A program made the position numbers and the translations under genes. A DNA stretch of 30,009 nt from positions 1-30,009 of IMG/VR virus record IMGVR_UViG_3300036760_000028, one strand, 5' to 3'. This DNA is from a virus. The notes under the pieces are model-generated. The model had not been told where the DNA came from. It worked only from the letters and a program-made list of their open reading frames with translations, and made no database searches. Shown here in pieces: positions 12,451 to 26,209 of this stretch (positions are counted from its first letter, which is position 1; every line of letters starts with the position of its first letter).

Positions 12451-12868
12451 CGTCTGACTCCAGTTTTATTCTAGGTCTGGATGCTGGTGTAAAGCCCATT
12501 TCCGAGGCTGCTTTAATCATGATCAACGCCTGCTGATTCATGATTTTAATAAACGGATTTATGGTGATGCGTTTTGTTTCCTTGTTGGCATGAACTAATC
12601 CATGCTGACTCACCTTCATGGCCGCTTCACGATGGGTGTCTTCCGCGCATATCCAGATTGCCAGCACTGAATTATCGATCTTTTTCAATAACCCCCTGGG
12701 CGCGTACTTGATGACGTAATTCCATCCCTCTTTCTGAGCTGGCGACATCCACATCGGCGCAGCTTTCAGATTCCCTGTCGGTATCGGCTCATTGTCAGGA
12801 AGTGGTCTATGACCGGGGTTTCCCTCGATAACTTTTAGGATGGTTGGTTTTATCTTTCTACCCCTCAT
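12416..12868 (-). CDS. terS: Terminase small subunit (P27 family)
   Basis: The product has 150 residues. The opening R-G-R-K-I-K-P-T with ILKVIEGNPGHRPLPDNEP, followed by a W-x-x-V-I-K segment, is the P27-type phage terminase small subunit signature. It binds phage DNA and directs the large subunit to the packaging site. ATG 12868 overlaps the stop of the methyltransferase gene (ATGA), so these genes are coupled. Confidence 0.9.
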   Translation of the reverse strand: MRGRKIKPTILKVIEGNPGHRPLPDNEPIPTGNLKAAPMWMSPAQKEGWNYVIKYAPRGLLKKIDNSVLAIWICAEDTHREAAMKVSQHGLVHANKETKRITINPFIKIMNQQALIMIKAASEMGFTPASRPRIKLESDGGTQEEESFFN

Positions 12869-14112
12869 AACTCCATTGCCTTCTTTCCGGTGTAGTTTTC
12901 ATATCGCTGAATTGTTATATCACAACAGTCTGGATCGATGTCCATGGCGTAACAGATGCGGCCCTCATCCTCACAGGCGATAATGGTGGTGCCACTGCCG
13001 ATGAATGGATCGTACACCGCGTCGCCGCGCTTGGAGTTATTCAGGATGGGACGGCGCATACATTCAACGGGTTTTTGGCTGCTGAGTTCAGTTTTGCCAT
13101 CATCAACACTGCCTTGTGTGCGATGCATGTTTTCAATTTCCCATACCGTAGATTGCTTTCTCCCACCATACCATTTCCCATGATTCTTTCTCACCGCATA
13201 CCAACATGGTTCGTGCCGCCAATGGTAATGGCCACGGCCAATTACCAGCGAGTTCTTCACCCAGATAATTTGGCAACGGATGATAAACCCGGCAACTTCA
13301 AGTGATCGCTGAACTTCACTGGCATGCCGACCGGCATGCCAAATGTAAGCAACGCCGCCCGGAAATAAATTGTATGCCTCGGACCAATCAATCCGATCAT
13401 CATTGGTGATTTTCTTTTCTGCGCGCTTTTGGTGCTGTTTATTTATGCCTGAATCAAGTCGGTGTTTTGCATCATATCCCACACCATACGGCGGGTCCGT
13501 TACCATCAGATGGGGATTTGCACCATTCAGCAGTCGGGTGACATCCTCCGCTTTAGTACTGTCGCCGCATAACAGCCGGTGCTTGCCCAAAGTCCAAAGT
13601 TGTCCGGGCTGGCAGCGTTTCACAACTTTATCGGGCAAGTTATCCTCGCCCTCATGCCCCACGTTCCCCAACATATCCCGCAGTTCAAAGTCTCGAAAGC
13701 CGGTGATCTCGAATAGATCACTATCAAACTTGACGAGTTCACTGAGTTCTGTTTTCAGGATATCCATATCCCATGTGCTCCGTTCCGCGAGCTTGTTATC
13801 GGCAATGATATAGGCGCTTTTCTGTTTGGCTGTAAGCCCCGCCTTGATCAGCACCGGAACCTTGTCATCCCCCCTGGCCTTCGCCGCCTCCCACGCCCCA
13901 TGCCCAGCCAAAATCACGCCATTTTCATCCGTGAGTATGGGGCGGGTCCATCCGAACTCGTTCAGACTGCCAACGAGGAGCGCGATCTGTTCGTCGCTGT
14001 GTTTTCTAGGGTTATTCGGATAGGGTTTTAGATTGTTGATGTCTAAAAATATCACTTTGGTTTCACCGTCCATGGCCTTATAGATTTGTTGCAATTTATG
14101 ATTATTTTTCAT
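12865..14112 (-). CDS. ParB-like / DNA methyltransferase fusion
   Basis: The product has 415 residues. Residues about 25-110 are a ParB-type nuclease/CTPase-like domain (NPRKHSDEQIALLVGSLNEF, then ILAGHGAWEAAK). Residues about 165-410 are an N4/N6-type DNA methyltransferase: DPPYG at 206-210 (motif IV) and DPFIGSGTTIIACE near 370 (motif I), with motif IV first, as in beta-class enzymes. Phage fusions of this type are thought to methylate phage DNA to evade restriction. It sits between an HNH gene and terminase. ATG 14112 has no obvious Shine-Dalgarno; ATG 14073 is an alternative start. Confidence 0.9.
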   Translation of the reverse strand: MKNNHKLQQIYKAMDGETKVIFLDINNLKPYPNNPRKHSDEQIALLVGSLNEFGWTRPILTDENGVILAGHGAWEAAKARGDDKVPVLIKAGLTAKQKSAYIIADNKLAERSTWDMDILKTELSELVKFDSDLFEITGFRDFELRDMLGNVGHEGEDNLPDKVVKRCQPGQLWTLGKHRLLCGDSTKAEDVTRLLNGANPHLMVTDPPYGVGYDAKHRLDSGINKQHQKRAEKKITNDDRIDWSEAYNLFPGGVAYIWHAGRHASEVQRSLEVAGFIIRCQIIWVKNSLVIGRGHYHWRHEPCWYAVRKNHGKWYGGRKQSTVWEIENMHRTQGSVDDGKTELSSQKPVECMRRPILNNSKRGDAVYDPFIGSGTTIIACEDEGRICYAMDIDPDCCDITIQRYENYTGKKAMEL

Positions 14113-19796: not shown

Positions 19797-20212
19797 GCAG
19801 CTTCAATCTGTTCGGGTGTGAGGGGTGGTAAAATCTCAGCCTTGACCGCTTGTTTCAGACCACGTTCCAGTTCCCGGCGCCGGGTCTCGTTGCTCTGCCA
19901 GTGAGTAAATTCTTTCTGGTGGCGCGCCTCCATTTGCGGAGTGGGCTTGCCGCCCATGGACTTGATGCACATCTTCAGCAGTTCACCGATGTCTACCTTG
20001 TCGGCAGGTACAACAGCGAACTCTGGCCGCTCGCGTTGTAAATCGGCAATAGCTTTATCGCGCCAGTCAAGATCCGCATACAGTAGGCAGGCCGCGCATT
20101 TATAGCGTTCGGTCCGTTCTTTACGGTTGCGCCAGGTGCGATAGTAACCATGTATTTCCCCATGGCAGGCAAAGCAGATGCGCGGGACAAAAACTTTTTC
20201 CTCTTTGCTCAT
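19793..20212 (-). CDS. Hypothetical protein with two zinc-type cysteine pairs
   Basis: The product has 139 residues. C-F-A-C-H near residue 13 and C-A-A-C near residue 38 form a C-x2-C pair set, then basic helical sequence (RRRELERGLKQAVKAE). It may bind DNA or the replication protein encoded just upstream. ATG overlaps that gene's stop. No family name is known to me. Confidence 0.6.
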   Translation of the reverse strand: MSKEEKVFVPRICFACHGEIHGYYRTWRNRKERTERYKCAACLLYADLDWRDKAIADLQRERPEFAVVPADKVDIGELLKMCIKSMGGKPTPQMEARHQKEFTHWQSNETRRRELERGLKQAVKAEILPPLTPEQIEAA

Positions 20213-20976
20213 GTGTTTGCCGCCACGCAGCGTTGTCGTAAATCAAAATAACTTTCCCCAGGTTTCGATGTGATCCCATGGTCGCTGGCATAGACTTCCA
20301 GCGCCCTGTGGTCGTTGGGGGATGGGATGGTGCCGTTGCCTTTTTTCTGCGGGCTATCTTTCTCCCGCGCCTCCCACGTCCTGACACACGCACGCCAGTC
20401 CTTGACGGGCTTACCCTTGCCCTGCACCCACCCGTTGGCCTGGTAGAAGTCCAGAAAGGTTTGGGGGTTGATGCTGTTCTTGCGTTCAAGGCAATATTCT
20501 TCGACCTCCTTGAGAGCGGGGGGCGTGAAACGCCCTCTCTTTTCTTTGGTTATTGGTTCTTGGTTAGTGGTTAGTGGTTTATGGTTAGCATTGCCTTCGC
20601 TATGCGTTCGCATGTCACCTTGCATAGCGTTCGCATTGCCTTCGTTTTGCAAACGCTCACGCTCCCATCGGGAGTCCGCGCTGGCCGCTGCTTTTTTTCT
20701 TTTACCTTGGAAGTGGTCTATCTCCTCGTCGCATCTTTTCTGGTGCCAGCCGTCATCCTGCAGGATGAAAAATTCATCAAGAACGGTTTTAACGGCCTCC
20801 TTTTGAGCTTTACTTGTTGCTCTCGCCATCCTGCAAGCTGCGGCCATGTTTACCGGGATGGGCTTCTCAGACAGATAGTACGCCCGTATCAGGCGCGTGT
20901 ACGCCATGTCCTCATCCCATGACAAATGAGAAGTTGCGGCGGCGTAGTCCCCGATATGGTCCTTGAAATAATTCAT
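20209..20976 (-). CDS. DUF1376-type replication protein with DnaT-like C-terminus
   Basis: The product has 255 residues. Residues 1 to about 90 (MNYFKDHIGDYAAATSHLSW, then YTRLIRAYYLSEKPIP) are DUF1376. Residues about 170-225 (LKEVEEYCLERK, then FLDFYQANGWVQGKGKPVKD then W) fit the C-terminal domain of phage helicase-loader or DnaT-like proteins. It probably binds origin DNA and recruits the host helicase DnaB, as no phage helicase is in the window. ATG overlaps the preceding stop. Confidence 0.85.
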   Translation of the reverse strand: MNYFKDHIGDYAAATSHLSWDEDMAYTRLIRAYYLSEKPIPVNMAAACRMARATSKAQKEAVKTVLDEFFILQDDGWHQKRCDEEIDHFQGKRKKAAASADSRWERERLQNEGNANAMQGDMRTHSEGNANHKPLTTNQEPITKEKRGRFTPPALKEVEEYCLERKNSINPQTFLDFYQANGWVQGKGKPVKDWRACVRTWEAREKDSPQKKGNGTIPSPNDHRALEVYASDHGITSKPGESYFDLRQRCVAANT

Positions 20977-21548
20977 TGCAGGTGATTGCTTTTTGCGCGG
21001 TTAATGTCAGCCGGGAGAATTTGCAAATTCCACGGAACGTGAAGCCCGCATACAAACTTACTCACCAGTGGGACTATATGGTCAACTTCATGGCGTTCAC
21101 CTGATTCAACCGTAATGCGTCTAGCATCCTTATAAATAGCCTTGATGTCTGACTTGTGTTTATCACTCAGCCAAGCCGGTGTTGCATTTAATTTTCTGGC
21201 GTGGCGTGCAGCCTGGATAGCTGTACGGACATATCGCGGAATGCGTTTCCAGAACGAGGTCGTCTTTGCGCTTGCTGCCCTGTATTTCTCTATCTCTTTC
21301 AGTGCCCTCCCGTTCATATATCCATCACAAGCCAGCGTGAAAAATTGGGCGAGAACGGTATCAACCGCAACTTGCTCTGTCCTGTTGAAAGCTCTGGCTA
21401 TCCTGTAACATGCCGCAAGATCAGGCGGGAGCGGCCTCTCGGTTGAATAAATATGGTCAAGCAGCACCGTATAAGCCCCCTGCTCAACCAGAGACAGGTG
21501 CGCCGTCTTGCCCATATAGTCCCCTGGGTATCGTTTGTAAAAATTCAC
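20973..21548 (-). CDS. DUF1376-HNH endonuclease fusion
   Basis: The product has 191 residues from GTG 21548, which has GAGGGG 7 nt upstream; a longer frame to 21590 would overlap the upstream gene. Residues 1-90 form a DUF1376 domain (YKRYPGDYMGKTAHLSLVEQ, then YRIARAFNRTEQ). Residues about 112-191 are a distinct HNH-type domain: ARKLNATPAW, then HEVDHIVP at 153-160 (H157), NLQ at 174-176 and N-R-A-K-S-N at 183-188. DUF1376 is a replication-initiator domain, so the nuclease may cut near the origin. It precedes a second, paralogous DUF1376 gene. Confidence 0.85.
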   Translation of the reverse strand: MNFYKRYPGDYMGKTAHLSLVEQGAYTVLLDHIYSTERPLPPDLAACYRIARAFNRTEQVAVDTVLAQFFTLACDGYMNGRALKEIEKYRAASAKTTSFWKRIPRYVRTAIQAARHARKLNATPAWLSDKHKSDIKAIYKDARRITVESGERHEVDHIVPLVSKFVCGLHVPWNLQILPADINRAKSNHLQ

Positions 21549-21570
21549 AGCGTCCCCCTCACCCTTGGTC

Positions 21571-21930
21571 TTACGCAAAAGCGCTGCCATTCAATCTGGC
21601 GCGTAACTGCGATTGCTGGGTGACGTCAATGTTACTTAACTCAGACACATCAACCATCATTCTGGATACCGGATGTTCAGGTTTGCCCGTTTCAAACAGC
21701 TTTTCAAACTTGACGGATAAATCAGTAATGCCATTTTTCTGCGCCATTTTTACAAATTCTTGGGCGGGGCCCAGGATGTCGAACTCATCCAGTGGGCGCG
21801 CGCGCAGATTATCAATCGCGAGTTTTGCGCGCTTTCCATATTCTTCTTCGTTCTCATTTTTTGCCCGCCCGTTTTTGTTATACCATTTTTTGAGCTCCGC
21901 ATTCTTGTCTAGCCCATAAACCTTAAACAT
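21571..21930 (-). CDS. Hypothetical, highly charged helical protein
   Basis: The product has 119 residues and is mainly charged helix (LKKWYNKNGRAKNENEEEYG and so on). It contains a D-V-S-E-L-S-N-I-D segment near the C-terminus. ATG 21930 has AGGAGA 8 nt upstream. Its stop is 22 bp upstream of the GTG start of the DUF1376-HNH gene. No domain recognised. Confidence 0.6.
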   Translation of the reverse strand: MFKVYGLDKNAELKKWYNKNGRAKNENEEEYGKRAKLAIDNLRARPLDEFDILGPAQEFVKMAQKNGITDLSVKFEKLFETGKPEHPVSRMMVDVSELSNIDVTQQSQLRARLNGSAFA

Positions 21931-22095: not shown

Positions 22096-22493
22096 TATGC
22101 CGCCTGTCGTTTTGATTCAATAAATTTATCAATCGCAGTTCGCACTGAAATTGCCGCAATGGGTTTACTCCATTTTTGTTTATAACGATATTGTTTGACT
22201 AATAAATCTGACACATTGATATCATCACTGGTGTTATGGCTTGCAATAAGTAGAAGACTTTCAATGTGCGCGGATTGACACGCATCACATAATCGTTCGA
22301 GCGCAAGACGCTGGCCGTATGGGAGCGGTGCTGTCCCATGTTTTGATTCAATGAAAACAAATATCCTGTTACCAAAATCCAGAAACGCATCAATATCCGT
22401 AGGCGTAATTTTTCCATAACGCAGCCCGCTAAAATCTCTGATTTGCTGGGCATATGTTCTGTTCCTGATTTTTCCACGATCTGCGTCATTCAT
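22095..22493 (-). CDS. Small PD-(D/E)XK-type nuclease
   Basis: The product has 132 residues. The pattern T-D-I-D-A-F-L-D-F (residues 32-40) followed by I-F-V-F-I-E-S-K-H-G (44-53) gives D35, E49 and K51, the core of PD-(D/E)XK folds. Such small phage nucleases act in DNA repair, recombination or host DNA degradation. ATG overlaps the methyltransferase gene stop by 4 bp. Confidence 0.8.
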   Translation of the reverse strand: MNDADRGKIRNRTYAQQIRDFSGLRYGKITPTDIDAFLDFGNRIFVFIESKHGTAPLPYGQRLALERLCDACQSAHIESLLLIASHNTSDDINVSDLLVKQYRYKQKWSKPIAAISVRTAIDKFIESKRQAA

Positions 22494-23404
22494 TTGTAAA
22501 GAACAATTCCCTTTGAAGAAAATTCTTTATTAAATTCTTTTGGTTTCTCACCAATGTAAATAATTGCCTGTCCCTGTAATGGTGCCCCGCTGGGATTGCC
22601 ATTTAGATCAAGAAACCTGATTCTTGATTTGACAAAACAAATTGAACGGCACACATGAGCGAGAATTTGAAACCAAGCCGTGTCGGTGGCGTTGTTAACT
22701 AACACACATGCTTCTTTTATTTCCCCGGACAGGTATTTATCTCTCGCCGCCGTGCAAAATTCATGGATAAGCGGTTGAGCATATGGCGGATTCATCCACA
22801 CACGTCCGGTCCATTTTTGTTTTAATCCGTCTTGTTTTGATGTAAAAAATATCTTTGCATTAACCGTCTGATTTGCAATTTCAGAACTGGCTGGATCACA
22901 ATCAATCCCACCCATTACTTTCCTGGCAGCTTCCACATATTCAGAAGGCGTATACCATTCATTGTTCCCTGAGTTATTGGTTACGTGTGCCCTTCCAGCC
23001 AACTTTTCCATTGTGCGGCCAGTCACAGCTTGCTGTTCTTCTCGGTGTTCGGCCAGCGTCGCTTCAAATTCATCTTCTGGAATACTGGCGAGCGATTGGG
23101 CGTGTGAGGATAAATCGTAACTGATGCCCATGTCGTTCAAGCTCGGCAGTGGCGAGGTTGATTTTCTATTGCCGCCATGTGTTTCAATTGCGCCGGAGTT
23201 TTGCCCATTCTTAATCATTTCACCCAACTTGCGTTCTGCCCTGATGCGTATCTCTGCTCCATAAATTTCAATCTGTTTATTTTTGGCTTGCCGCCCATAA
23301 CATTGCATGGCGATTGATTTGTCGCGGATATCTTTTACTTCATCCACCGCATGAGCTTCCGCCAGAGCATGACAGGCTGCTTCATATTTAATTAACTGCG
23401 TCAT
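22490..23404 (-). CDS. Phage N6-adenine DNA methyltransferase
   Basis: The product has 304 residues from ATG 23404, which overlaps the preceding TGA (ATGA); an upstream in-frame ATG at 23422 is less likely. An N-terminal helical part (residues 1-140) precedes NEWYTP (148-153), G-I-D-C-D-P-A-S (166-173), and MNPPY (204-208), the catalytic signature of phage Dam-type enzymes. It modifies phage or host DNA. It leads a set of DNA-metabolism genes after the Cro-like gene. Confidence 0.92.
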   Translation of the reverse strand: MTQLIKYEAACHALAEAHAVDEVKDIRDKSIAMQCYGRQAKNKQIEIYGAEIRIRAERKLGEMIKNGQNSGAIETHGGNRKSTSPLPSLNDMGISYDLSSHAQSLASIPEDEFEATLAEHREEQQAVTGRTMEKLAGRAHVTNNSGNNEWYTPSEYVEAARKVMGGIDCDPASSEIANQTVNAKIFFTSKQDGLKQKWTGRVWMNPPYAQPLIHEFCTAARDKYLSGEIKEACVLVNNATDTAWFQILAHVCRSICFVKSRIRFLDLNGNPSGAPLQGQAIIYIGEKPKEFNKEFSSKGIVLYK

Positions 23405-23601
23405 CTCTGCGCCACCGCCCACTTATACGTCAGCCCGTAATCATCCCATCCGTCTGCGCTGCATAAATTGTAAGTATCGCGTTCAAACGTCACGGCATGA
23501 ATCTCATAGGTGACGGGATCGATGGAAATTCTCGCGTCATGCCAATCTTTCATGATGATCATCGTAAGAAGTTCGGAACAAACCTGAGCGAGGATGTCCA
23601 T
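23401..23601 (-). CDS. Small hypothetical protein
   Basis: The product has 66 residues from ATG 23601, which has GGAG 8 nt upstream; an in-frame ATG at 23610 is less likely. It contains MKDWHDARISID and a D-T-Y-N-L-C-S-A-D-G-W-D-D-Y-G segment. It overlaps the methyltransferase start (ATGA) and, upstream, the stop of a 13-codon frame (TGATG). No function is assigned. Confidence 0.6.
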   Translation of the reverse strand: MDILAQVCSELLTMIIMKDWHDARISIDPVTYEIHAVTFERDTYNLCSADGWDDYGLTYKWAVAQR

Positions 23602-23775: not shown

Positions 23776-23979
23776 TCATGCGGCGATCTCATTGAAAATA
23801 TCAGGCCGCAGTTCTTGGCGCGTGACGGCACCTTTGGTAATACGTTCAATCTTTACCGCGTTTTCAGCGGTTATGGAGGTGGTGCCACTTAACCATTGAC
23901 TGATAAGCCCCTGGCTGACACCAGCGGCTTTCGCAAACTCGTCTTGAGTGGTCTTTTTCAGATATTCATCCAAGCGCAT
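23776..23979 (-). CDS. Cro-like repressor (YdaS/XRE HTH)
   Basis: The product has 67 residues. TQDEFAKAAG, V-S-Q-G-L-I-S-Q-W-L-S-G-T-T (recognition helix) and I-T-A-E-N-A-V-K-I-E-R-I are a YdaS-like HTH. It is divergent from the CI-like gene, as cro is. ATG 23979 follows the -10 box by only 6 nt, so its mRNA is probably leaderless. It likely binds the four operators described here and favours lytic growth. Confidence 0.85.
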   Translation of the reverse strand: MRLDEYLKKTTQDEFAKAAGVSQGLISQWLSGTTSITAENAVKIERITKGAVTRQELRPDIFNEIAA

Positions 23980-23985
23980 AGATTT

Positions 23986-24013
23986 ATATTAGCACAGCTA
24001 TTTATTAAAGCAA
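23986..24013 (-). promoter_or_regulatory. PR-like early promoter driving cro
   Basis: On minus, TTGCTT (24013-24008) is 16 bp from TAATAT (23991-23986). Both boxes fall inside or against the operator pair at 23988-24002 and 24012-24026. The ATG is 6 nt after the -10, so +1 should be at or next to the A of the start codon. Confidence 0.75.
23988..24002. promoter_or_regulatory. Operator O1 (OR-like pair)
   Basis: ATTAGC ACA GCTATT is one of four near-palindromic 15-bp sites with consensus ATTAG(C/G)NNNGCTATT. It overlaps the cro -10 box. Its centre is 24 bp from that of the second copy. Confidence 0.8.
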
Positions 24014-24026
24014 TAGCCGCCCTAAT
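24012..24026. promoter_or_regulatory. Operator O2 (OR-like pair)
   Basis: On the plus strand AATAGC CGC CCTAAT, which is the reverse complement of ATTAGG GCG GCTATT, so it matches the same consensus with one stem change. It overlaps the cro -35 box. A weak PRM-type promoter for the repressor could also be covered by it. Confidence 0.75.
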
Positions 24027-24061
24027 GGATTCTTTTCAACATCGCGGGTAGGGTGAAAATC

Positions 24062-24514
24062 ATGAAAAAGACCAGAAAGATTACCAAAGCCGATAAGGAA
24101 GCTGCAGATCGGCTCAAAAACCTTTGGAGACTGAGAAAAAAGCCACTTGGCTTGACGCAGGAGAAAGTTGCAGCCCTATGGGGCGGCCACGGCGAGCCGA
24201 AGACCCAGGGGCTTATCAGTCAGTATCTGAATGGCACCATCGTCCTCGGGCCGGTAGCCGTGATGAAATGGGCCCGAATATTGAAAGTCAGGCCGACAGA
24301 CATACGGCAAGATTTCGAATATAAGGATATGGTATCCGGGGATCTGCGCCCGGATGCAATCGAGATTGCCATCAAATGGCAATCCCTCCCACCGAGATCG
24401 GCCATAGACTTCAAATCAATGCTGGATACCATGATAGGCCACATCCAGGGTTATGAAGACTTTCTGGGTGGCGTCACCGCTGATAAAAATCCTCAAAAAC
24501 TCATCACGCAGTAA
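24062..24514 (+). CDS. CI-like repressor without peptidase domain
   Basis: The product has 150 residues from ATG 24062 (AGGG upstream); GTG 24053 is in frame. The HTH (LTQEKVAALW, an insertion GGHGEPKT, then Q-G-L-I-S-Q-Y-L-N-G-T) shares the recognition string with the Cro-like protein. The remaining ~60 residues (LRPDAIEIAIKWQSLPP) lack the S24/LexA serine-lysine dyad, so RecA-driven self-cleavage is not expected. Between the two operator pairs it takes the place of lambda cI. Confidence 0.85.
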   Translation: MKKTRKITKADKEAADRLKNLWRLRKKPLGLTQEKVAALWGGHGEPKTQGLISQYLNGTIVLGPVAVMKWARILKVRPTDIRQDFEYKDMVSGDLRPDAIEIAIKWQSLPPRSAIDFKSMLDTMIGHIQGYEDFLGGVTADKNPQKLITQ

Positions 24515-24530
24515 AATTTTGCAATAATAT

Positions 24531-24545
24531 ATTAGCTAGGCTATT
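24531..24545. promoter_or_regulatory. Operator O3 (OL-like pair)
   Basis: ATTAGC TAG GCTATT, perfect match to the operator consensus. It overlaps the -35 box of the plus-strand early promoter by its last two bases. Confidence 0.85.
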
Positions 24546-24571
24546 GACTTTCTTATTAGCCTTGCTATTAT
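24544..24571 (+). promoter_or_regulatory. PL-like early promoter
   Basis: TTGACT (24544-24549), 16-bp spacer, TATTAT (24566-24571). The spacer and geometry match the cro promoter. The next ATG is at 24579, seven nt after the -10 box, again predicting leaderless mRNA. Operators O3 and O4 overlap the -35 and -10 boxes. Confidence 0.8.
24555..24569. promoter_or_regulatory. Operator O4 (OL-like pair)
   Basis: ATTAGC CTT GCTATT, perfect match to the operator consensus. Its centre is 24 bp from O3, as in the OR-like pair, and it overlaps the -10 box. Confidence 0.85.
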
Positions 24572-24578
24572 TCATTCC

Positions 24579-24935
24579 ATGACCACCGAACAATCCATGA
24601 TGACTCACCTGCAACGCACGATGGACGGTATCTTTGCCCCAGCTGTAGCCGCTGCCCACAACATCACGCCCCGGCGCCGTCCTGAATTGCTGGCCGAGAT
24701 TGAACTGGACGCCATTGAACTGGACGCCAAAGAATCAGGCAAGCACTTCTGCTTCTTCACCCTGCACGTCTACGGCTACTGGCACCGTAGCCTTGATGAC
24801 ATCACCATCACGGATGTCAACATCGGCGATCAGAACATCATCGGTGATTTGGACGGGCAGACGATGGAGAAGATTGAGAAATGGATACGGGAGAATACAT
24901 GCCCGCCTTCCTCCACATGCTCTTCCTCGTCATAA
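24579..24935 (+). CDS. First gene of plus-strand early operon, hypothetical
   Basis: The product has 118 residues. It has no recognised domain: a basic stretch (N-I-T-P-R-R-R-P), a helix E-L-L-A-E-I-E-L-D-A-I-E-L-D-A, then a beta segment FCFFTLHVYGYWHRSL. In lambda this position belongs to N. There is no N-type arginine-rich motif clear enough to call it an antiterminator. ATG 24579 has no Shine-Dalgarno, as expected for leaderless mRNA. The 3' end overlaps the next gene. Confidence 0.6.
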   Translation: MTTEQSMMTHLQRTMDGIFAPAVAAAHNITPRRRPELLAEIELDAIELDAKESGKHFCFFTLHVYGYWHRSLDDITITDVNIGDQNIIGDLDGQTMEKIEKWIRENTCPPSSTCSSSS

Positions 24936-25360: not shown

Positions 25361-26209
25361 ATGAGCGAAAAAACAAAATCGTATAAAGGCTTTCACATGG
25401 ACATGACCTGCAACGGATTCCAGTTTGAAATCGGCAGGTCATATAAGCACGGCGGTAATGTCAAATGTTGCTCAACAGGTTTTCATTCCTGTGAATACCC
25501 GCTGGATGTTTTCGAATATTACGATCCGTCCGATTCGCGCTACGCCATTGTTTCTACAGAAGGTAAAACTGATCGGGATGGTAGTGATACAAAGTTCGCC
25601 GCAGCGAAGATTACTATCGAAGCAGAATTAAAGATTCCTGAAATGGTACAACATGCCGTTGGCTGGATCATGGCGCAACTTATCCCAAATCGAGAACAAA
25701 CTGTAATCCCGGGAGACCGGAGCGCAGCCACCAACACGGGATACCGGAGCGCAGCCACCAACACGGGAGACCGGAGCGCAGCCACCAACACGGGACACCA
25801 GAGCGCAGCCACCAACACGGGATACCAGAGCGCAGCCACCAACACGGGATACCAGAGCGCAGCCACCAACACGGGAGACCGGAGCGCAGCCACCAACACG
25901 GGATACCGGAGCGCAGCCACCAACACGGGATACCAGAGCGCAGCCACCAACACGGGAGACCGGAGCGCAGCCACCAACACGGGACACCAGAGCGCAGCCA
26001 CCGTAGAAGGAAGGGACTCAGTTGCAATTTCATCAGGTCCCGCCGGTAAAGCTAAAGCCTGCAAAGACAGCGCAATCGTTTTGTGTTACCGGGACGATGT
26101 TGGACATTTAATCCACATTCGCGCAAGCAAGGTTGGCGACAATGGCATCAAACCAGACACTTGGTATTCACTCAATGATGACGCCGAATTTATTGAGATT
26201 ACGGAATGA
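25361..26209 (+). CDS. DUF7666-type phage protein with 9-residue repeat tract
   Basis: The product has 282 residues from ATG 25361 (GAGA upstream). Residues 1 to about 115 (YKGFHMDMTCNGFQFEIGRS, then C-C-S-T-G-F-H-S-C) are a conserved phage domain. Residues about 118-216 are 11 copies of a 9-residue unit G-(D/Y/H)-(R/Q)-S-A-A-T-N-T. A C-terminal ~60 residues (SAIVLCYRDDVG, then G-I-K-P-D-T-W-Y-S-L) match the usual end of the family. The repeat resembles beta-roll repeats such as those of YadA heads. Function is not known. Confidence 0.75.
   Translation: MSEKTKSYKGFHMDMTCNGFQFEIGRSYKHGGNVKCCSTGFHSCEYPLDVFEYYDPSDSRYAIVSTEGKTDRDGSDTKFAAAKITIEAELKIPEMVQHAVGWIMAQLIPNREQTVIPGDRSAATNTGYRSAATNTGDRSAATNTGHQSAATNTGYQSAATNTGYQSAATNTGDRSAATNTGYRSAATNTGYQSAATNTGDRSAATNTGHQSAATVEGRDSVAISSGPAGKAKACKDSAIVLCYRDDVGHLIHIRASKVGDNGIKPDTWYSLNDDAEFIEITE
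25712..26008 (+). repeat. Eleven tandem 27-bp repeats
   Basis: Units begin GGA (D/Y/H codon)(CGG or CAG) then code SAATNT. Ten are complete; the last ends in VE instead of NT. Differences occur almost only at the first base of codon 2 (GAC, TAC, CAC) and the middle base of codon 3 (CGG, CAG). The near-identity indicates recent slippage or recombination. Confidence 0.95.

Follow-up and report, generated by a model that had tools for sequence, protein, structure and literature searches.

Four copies of one short motif flank a single repressor gene in a phage genome. Do they form the operators of a lambda-type lysis/lysogeny switch, what sets their identical spacing, and which proteins read them? 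We addressed these questions in a window that comprises a whole virus record of 30,009 bp.

Sites and genes of the candidate immunity region

The contig is that of a tailed phage, with genes for terminase, portal, head protease, and major head protein at 7 to 12.5 kb. Four 15-bp sequences match ATTAG(C/G)NNNGCTATT exactly (Table 1), and they form two pairs with a spacing of 24 bp within each pair, 519 to 567 bp between sites across the pairs, and ~543 bp between the pair centers. Positions, strands, and pair spacing agree exactly with the first-pass annotation, as does the placement of the sites around exactly one repressor gene. When the complete record was scanned with the consensus, a check that the annotation had proposed, only these four places were found at ≤1 mismatch, so the motif is not scattered; the reversed control pattern gave 0 matches in the same record. 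A symmetric position weight matrix (PWM) built from the four sites scored them at 17.4 to 20.8 bits; the next best place reached 10.2 bits, and with this matrix no third site, even a weaker one, was found at either operator. The annotated count of two sites per operator, against three in lambda, therefore stands and is mildly unusual. Since the motif had been picked post hoc, the control admitted any gapped word of the form 5-Nk-5 in dinucleotide shuffles of the window. None of 60 shuffles had four non-overlapping copies of one gapped word inside 600 bp (best, three), and the sole larger word family reported from the real sequence was a coding 27-bp tandem repeat at 25.7 to 26.0 kb.

Table 1. 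Coordinates of sites, promoter elements, and genes around the repressor gene
Feature	Position	Strand	Remarks
Cro/YdaS/DicC-like lytic repressor, 67 aa	23776..23979	-	Pfam, tblastn, recognition helix SQGLISQWLSGT
Putative PR -10, TAATAT	23986..23991	-	Outer half of OR1; sequence, and CTATTG...CTAATAT conserved in relatives
OR1-like operator site ATTAGCACAGCTATT	23988..24002	+	Center at -67 from repressor ATG
Putative PR -35, TTGCTT	24008..24013	-	Overlaps OR2 end; sequence, and CTATTG fusion conserved in relatives
OR2-like operator site ATTAGGGCGGCTATT	24012..24026	-	Center at -43 from repressor ATG (lambda OR2, -42)
Short CI-like prophage repressor, 150 aa	24062..24514	+	Lambda CI-type N-terminal HTH and ~55-aa C-terminal tail
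OL2-like operator site, distal ATTAGCTAGGCTATT	24531..24545	+	
Putative PL -35, TTGACT	24544..24549	+	Overlaps end of distal OL site
OL1-like operator site, proximal ATTAGCCTTGCTATT	24555..24569	+	
Putative PL -10, TATTAT	24566..24571	+	Overlaps end of proximal OL site; predicted +1 at ~24578-24579
First gene of PL-like operon, 118 aa	24579..24935	+	ATG 7 nt after -10; probably leaderless

The genes and sites follow the order cro-like gene (minus strand), first pair, repressor gene (plus strand), second pair, and early genes from 24579, which is the lambda topology (N ← OL, cI ← OR → cro) read off the other strand. The annotation had described a CI/Cro operator set in an OL/OR topology, and we recovered it as cro ← OR → cI → OL → early genes. 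Curated Pfam models place the product of the cro-like gene among the YdaS/P22-Cro-type lytic repressors (YdaS_toxin, 7e-17, 61.4 versus a cutoff of 30; HTH_3, 1e-10; P22_Cro, 2e-7, 31.0 versus 30.2), and tblastn matched it to phage Cro/DicC proteins. The repressor matched HTH_3 alone in Pfam; an S24/LexA-type self-cleaving peptidase C-terminal domain was not found in the 150-aa protein, which gave only HTH matches. It aligned with the lambda CI N-terminal domain at 32% over 95 aa (E value of 2e-8 in a two-sequence alignment), a family profile run against solved structures matched lambda CI structures, and a structure model of the repressor matched 1lmb, 3kz3, and 1rio. The N-terminal domain of the model is confident and lambda CI-like, and the C-terminal tail (residues 91 to 150) is of low confidence, with block means of 45 to 63 that are too uncertain to judge oligomerization. 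We consider it highly probable that the four sites are an OR pair and an OL pair in the lambda-type immunity region of a temperate tailed phage and act by a CI/Cro mechanism.

Searched alone against viral contigs, the repressor had no relative. The last 10 kb had no match in a nucleotide search of the phage collection, the first gene on the PL side had none in Pfam, PHROG, or NCBIfam, and a search of Rfam gave no match. Farther along the PL-side early operon, the ORF at 25361-26209 (PHROG 4433, unknown function) contains the 27-bp tandem repeat at 25710-26002 (10.9 copies, 95% matches), which encodes 9-aa AATNTG[YDH][RQ]S units. Two adjoining DUF1376 (primosomal-like) ORFs occupy 20209-21590, the upstream one (20973-21590) with an HNH/endonuclease VII-like domain in place of the C-terminal part. 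A ParB-like domain fused with a DNA methyltransferase (PHROG 498) is encoded at 12865-14112, and a second, Dam-like methyltransferase is encoded at 22490-23422.

Fusion of the sites to two predicted outward promoters

Conservation was assessed in 52 relatives, made nonredundant at <85% identity over the first 100 aa but not all independent, using a PWM from the window's four sites only, a threshold of 9 bits, and search ranges of ≤110 bp upstream and ≤200 bp downstream of the repressor gene. A site was found upstream in 34 of the 52 (shuffles: mean of 2.0, maximum of 6) and downstream in 13 (shuffles: mean of 1.9, maximum of 6), while control stretches of equal length inside the repressor gene yielded 0/52. 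Many of the 18 relatives in which an upstream site of the window type was absent at 9 bits have different recognition helices.

In the window, each pair merges with a predicted outward sigma-70 promoter, reading CTATTG...TAATAT at the putative PR and CTATTG...TATTAT at the putative PL, with the -35 at the end of the distal site and the proximal site extending into the -10. The PL-like promoter (TTGACT-16-TATTAT) was detected by the promoter scanner; the PR-like promoter (TTGCTT-16-TAATAT, 8/12) was under the scanner threshold and was read by eye. With 1.4 scanner hits per shuffle, support for both promoters comes chiefly from their conservation in the relatives, where the fusion reads CTATTGAC...CTAATAT with a site spacing of 25 bp and a promoter spacer of 17 bp. 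On this combined basis, the annotated overlap of the sites with two outward promoters was borne out. Aligned outward, the pairs read ATTAGGGCGGCTATTGCTTTAATAAATAGCTGTGCTAATAT-6-ATG (PR) and ATTAGCTAGGCTATTGACTTTCTTATTAGCCTTGCTATTAT-7-ATG (PL). The predicted PR +1 falls on or beside the cro-like ATG, and both the PR and the PL transcripts are predicted to start at the ATG or a few bases from it. The cro-like gene (ATG at 23979) and the first PL gene (ATG at 24579) look leaderless, with the ATG 6 to 7 nt past the -10; in lambda and CP-933P, the leaderless gene is the repressor gene instead.

With site, -35, and -10 fused in this way, the site spacing equals the promoter spacer plus 8, and the 16-bp spacer common to both promoters accounts for the identical 24-bp spacing. 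Spacing and spacer shift together in Rahnella, where OR has 24 bp with a spacer of 16 and OL has 25 bp with a spacer of 17. The sites differ in orientation because the halves of the near-palindrome (ATTAG and AATAG) also serve as promoter letters. The annotation had taken the equal spacing as distinctive, a claim that we do not uphold: OL1 and OL2, like OR1 and OR2, are also 24 bp apart in lambda, the promoter spacer fixes the distance between the sites, and operator-promoter fusion therefore makes equal spacing by itself no evidence for looping or cooperativity. As the comparative set shows, the spacing of phage operators can follow from their fusion to the promoter elements (-10 and -35) under their control.

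On the same operators, CI dimers at the OR and OL pairs may in addition join as an octamer and bridge the ~543 bp in a short loop, a possibility to which we give somewhat less than an even chance. Each pair has lambda O1-O2 geometry, and looping has been demonstrated in HK022 (~700 bp), in phiKO2 (~630 bp), and in lambda with 2-operator OL/OR sites (PMC8053113); PaaR2, also a short repressor, forms octamers in solution (PMC8630535). The distances in HK022, phiKO2, and Qin dicA (~546 bp) also mean that the lambda separation of >2 kb, which the annotation had used as its yardstick, is not a general rule. Against a loop, the C-terminal domain with which lambda CI makes tetramers and octamers is missing from the window repressor, whose own tail is modeled at low confidence. 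The 24-bp identity needs no loop, as promoter spacing suffices. Nor is a strong second pair universal: in 39 of the 52 relatives, no PWM site reached 9 bits in the 200 bp downstream. A short OL-OR loop in the window is plausible on this analysis.

Proteins predicted to bind the sites

The recognition helices of the CI-like protein (TQGLISQYLNGT) and the Cro-like protein are identical at 9 of 12 positions, so that both proteins probably read the same half-site. Across 45 loci, this helix pair ranked first for same-locus match, and same-locus pairs beat shuffled partners in 2,000 of 2,000 permutations, a comparison uncorrected for the shared ancestry of cI/cro pairs. Both proteins thus probably bind the same sites. 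There are experimental precedents: in CP-933P, the footprints of PaaR2 and YdaS at OR overlap, and each of the two proteins represses PL (PMC8630535); DicA bound at Oc acts as a repressor of dicC and an activator of dicA (PMC3441716). Use of the sites by one protein only, such as the CI-like repressor, would require Cro to read a single other site, as in phiKO2 and PY54, where Cro binds only OR3 (PMC4997575). The window has no extra OR3-like site, and the close match of the Cro helix to the repressor helix also speaks against this division of labor, which we regard as improbable.

In the relatives, the 5′ ends of the sites cluster at -75, -50, and -26 from the start codon, equivalent to centers at -68, -43, and -19; the centers of OR1, OR2, and OR3 in the lambda record are at -66, -42, and -19 from the cI start. 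The window retains the -67 and -43 positions and is without the -19 position. One relative (L093, 142-aa repressor, from an order-level sample around an Achromobacter genome) has 2 + 2 strong sites with 25-bp spacing. Weak palindromes do arise in A/T-rich intergenic regions, but no shuffle reached four copies and dozens of prophages carry equivalent sites at matching positions, a conservation that contradicts chance. That the four sites are palindromes arisen by chance, or an unrelated repeat such as an element for replication or packaging, is in our view extremely improbable. In L101, L102, L104, L106, and L109, from a Pseudomonas-family sample, the recognition helix is TQGAVSHFMN or similar and AATACC..GGTAAT-type sites lie upstream of the repressor gene at the same -50 and -26 positions. 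Such co-variation of helix and site is a possible specificity code for this CI-like repressor family.

Known counterparts and the proposed switch

The closest relative among phage records is the dicA/dicC region of Rac-SA53 (Escherichia phage, KU052037), with a short repressor (153 aa), a divergent Cro-like gene, sites ATTAGCCTCACTAAT and AATAGTCAGACTATC fused to the PR -10 and -35, and, as in the window, a second promoter/operator past the repressor. The window shares repressor homology (48% over 92 aa with Rac-SA53 "DicA"), the divergent Cro-like gene, and ATTAG-type sites fused to PR; Rac-SA53 differs in that its sites are 25 bp apart, its OL sites are weaker, its Cro-like gene has a leader, and its early genes are different. 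Lambda resembles the window in gene order, with divergent cro and cI, OR overlapping PR, and OL beyond cI overlapping an outward PL, and also in its O1-O2 spacing, OR1/OR2 positions, and homologous CI N-terminal domain. It differs in having three sites per operator, operators 2.3 kb apart, a CI with a self-cleaving C-terminal domain, and a different half-site; neither three sites per operator (PWM) nor an S24/LexA-type CI C-terminal domain (150 aa, HTH only) was found here.

The DicA/DicC/dicBp region of E. coli Qin also has a short repressor without a peptidase domain and operators on both sides, with operator-like sites at the ~546-bp distance noted above (read from sequence) and Oc overlapping the dicC -10. 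Its sites are of the 18-bp TGTTAGN6CTAACA type, unlike those in the window, and DicA is only ~20% identical to the window repressor. The Qin DicA family proper was rejected: the NCBIfam DicA model failed on the window repressor, and TGTTAGN6CTAACA sites were not found. N15/phiKO2 immB has two OL sites right after the repressor gene, a similar OL-OR distance, and, in phiKO2, looping, but three OR sites; N15 CB showed no detectable homology to the window repressor, and the immB combination of a CB-homologous repressor with three OR and two OL sites was not found. O157 CP-933P pairs a short CI-like repressor with a YdaS-type Cro, overlapping OR sites, and repression of an OL-like PL by both; unlike the window, it has four inverted repeats, three operators per region, and a toxin-antitoxin operon. 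K-12 RacR was rejected as a relative (E value of 0.096). Closely similar arrangements are already known, and what is mildly new here is that neither operator has a third site. The locus is almost certainly a lambda-type lysis/lysogeny switch of the ordinary sort in a slightly reduced form, with a short repressor and two sites at each operator.

In such a switch, dimers of the 150-aa repressor would occupy both sites of each pair. At OR they would cover the PR -10 and -35 and turn the cro-like gene off; at OL they would cover those of PL and turn off the early genes from 24579, so that the lytic operons would be kept off. Repressor on the site at 24012, at the lambda position of -43, probably activates a weak repressor promoter, PRM, which is not recognizable by sequence. 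The Cro-like protein would occupy the same sites, presumably competing with CI, and without PRM activation the repressor would run out. In a region without OR3, Cro would halt synthesis of the repressor by dislodging CI from the position at which it activates, and through occlusion. Cooperativity and induction must be unlike those of lambda, as an S24/LexA-type domain is missing from the repressor.

The lambda switch works by opposite site preferences of CI and Cro, OR1 versus OR3. If the 2 + 2 reading is true, sites shared by CI and Cro mean that bistability cannot rest on such a preference. A minimal 2 + 2 switch without O3, with near-identical CI and Cro helices on the same sites and bistability set by which protein activates PRM from the shared OR2, is a tentative proposal that we hold to be rather unlikely. 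The locus is a compact natural test case for what the lambda switch can do without, with the O3 sites and the cleavable CI domain absent and the CI and Cro helices matched, and its remaining interest lies in the missing O3 sites together with those matched helices.
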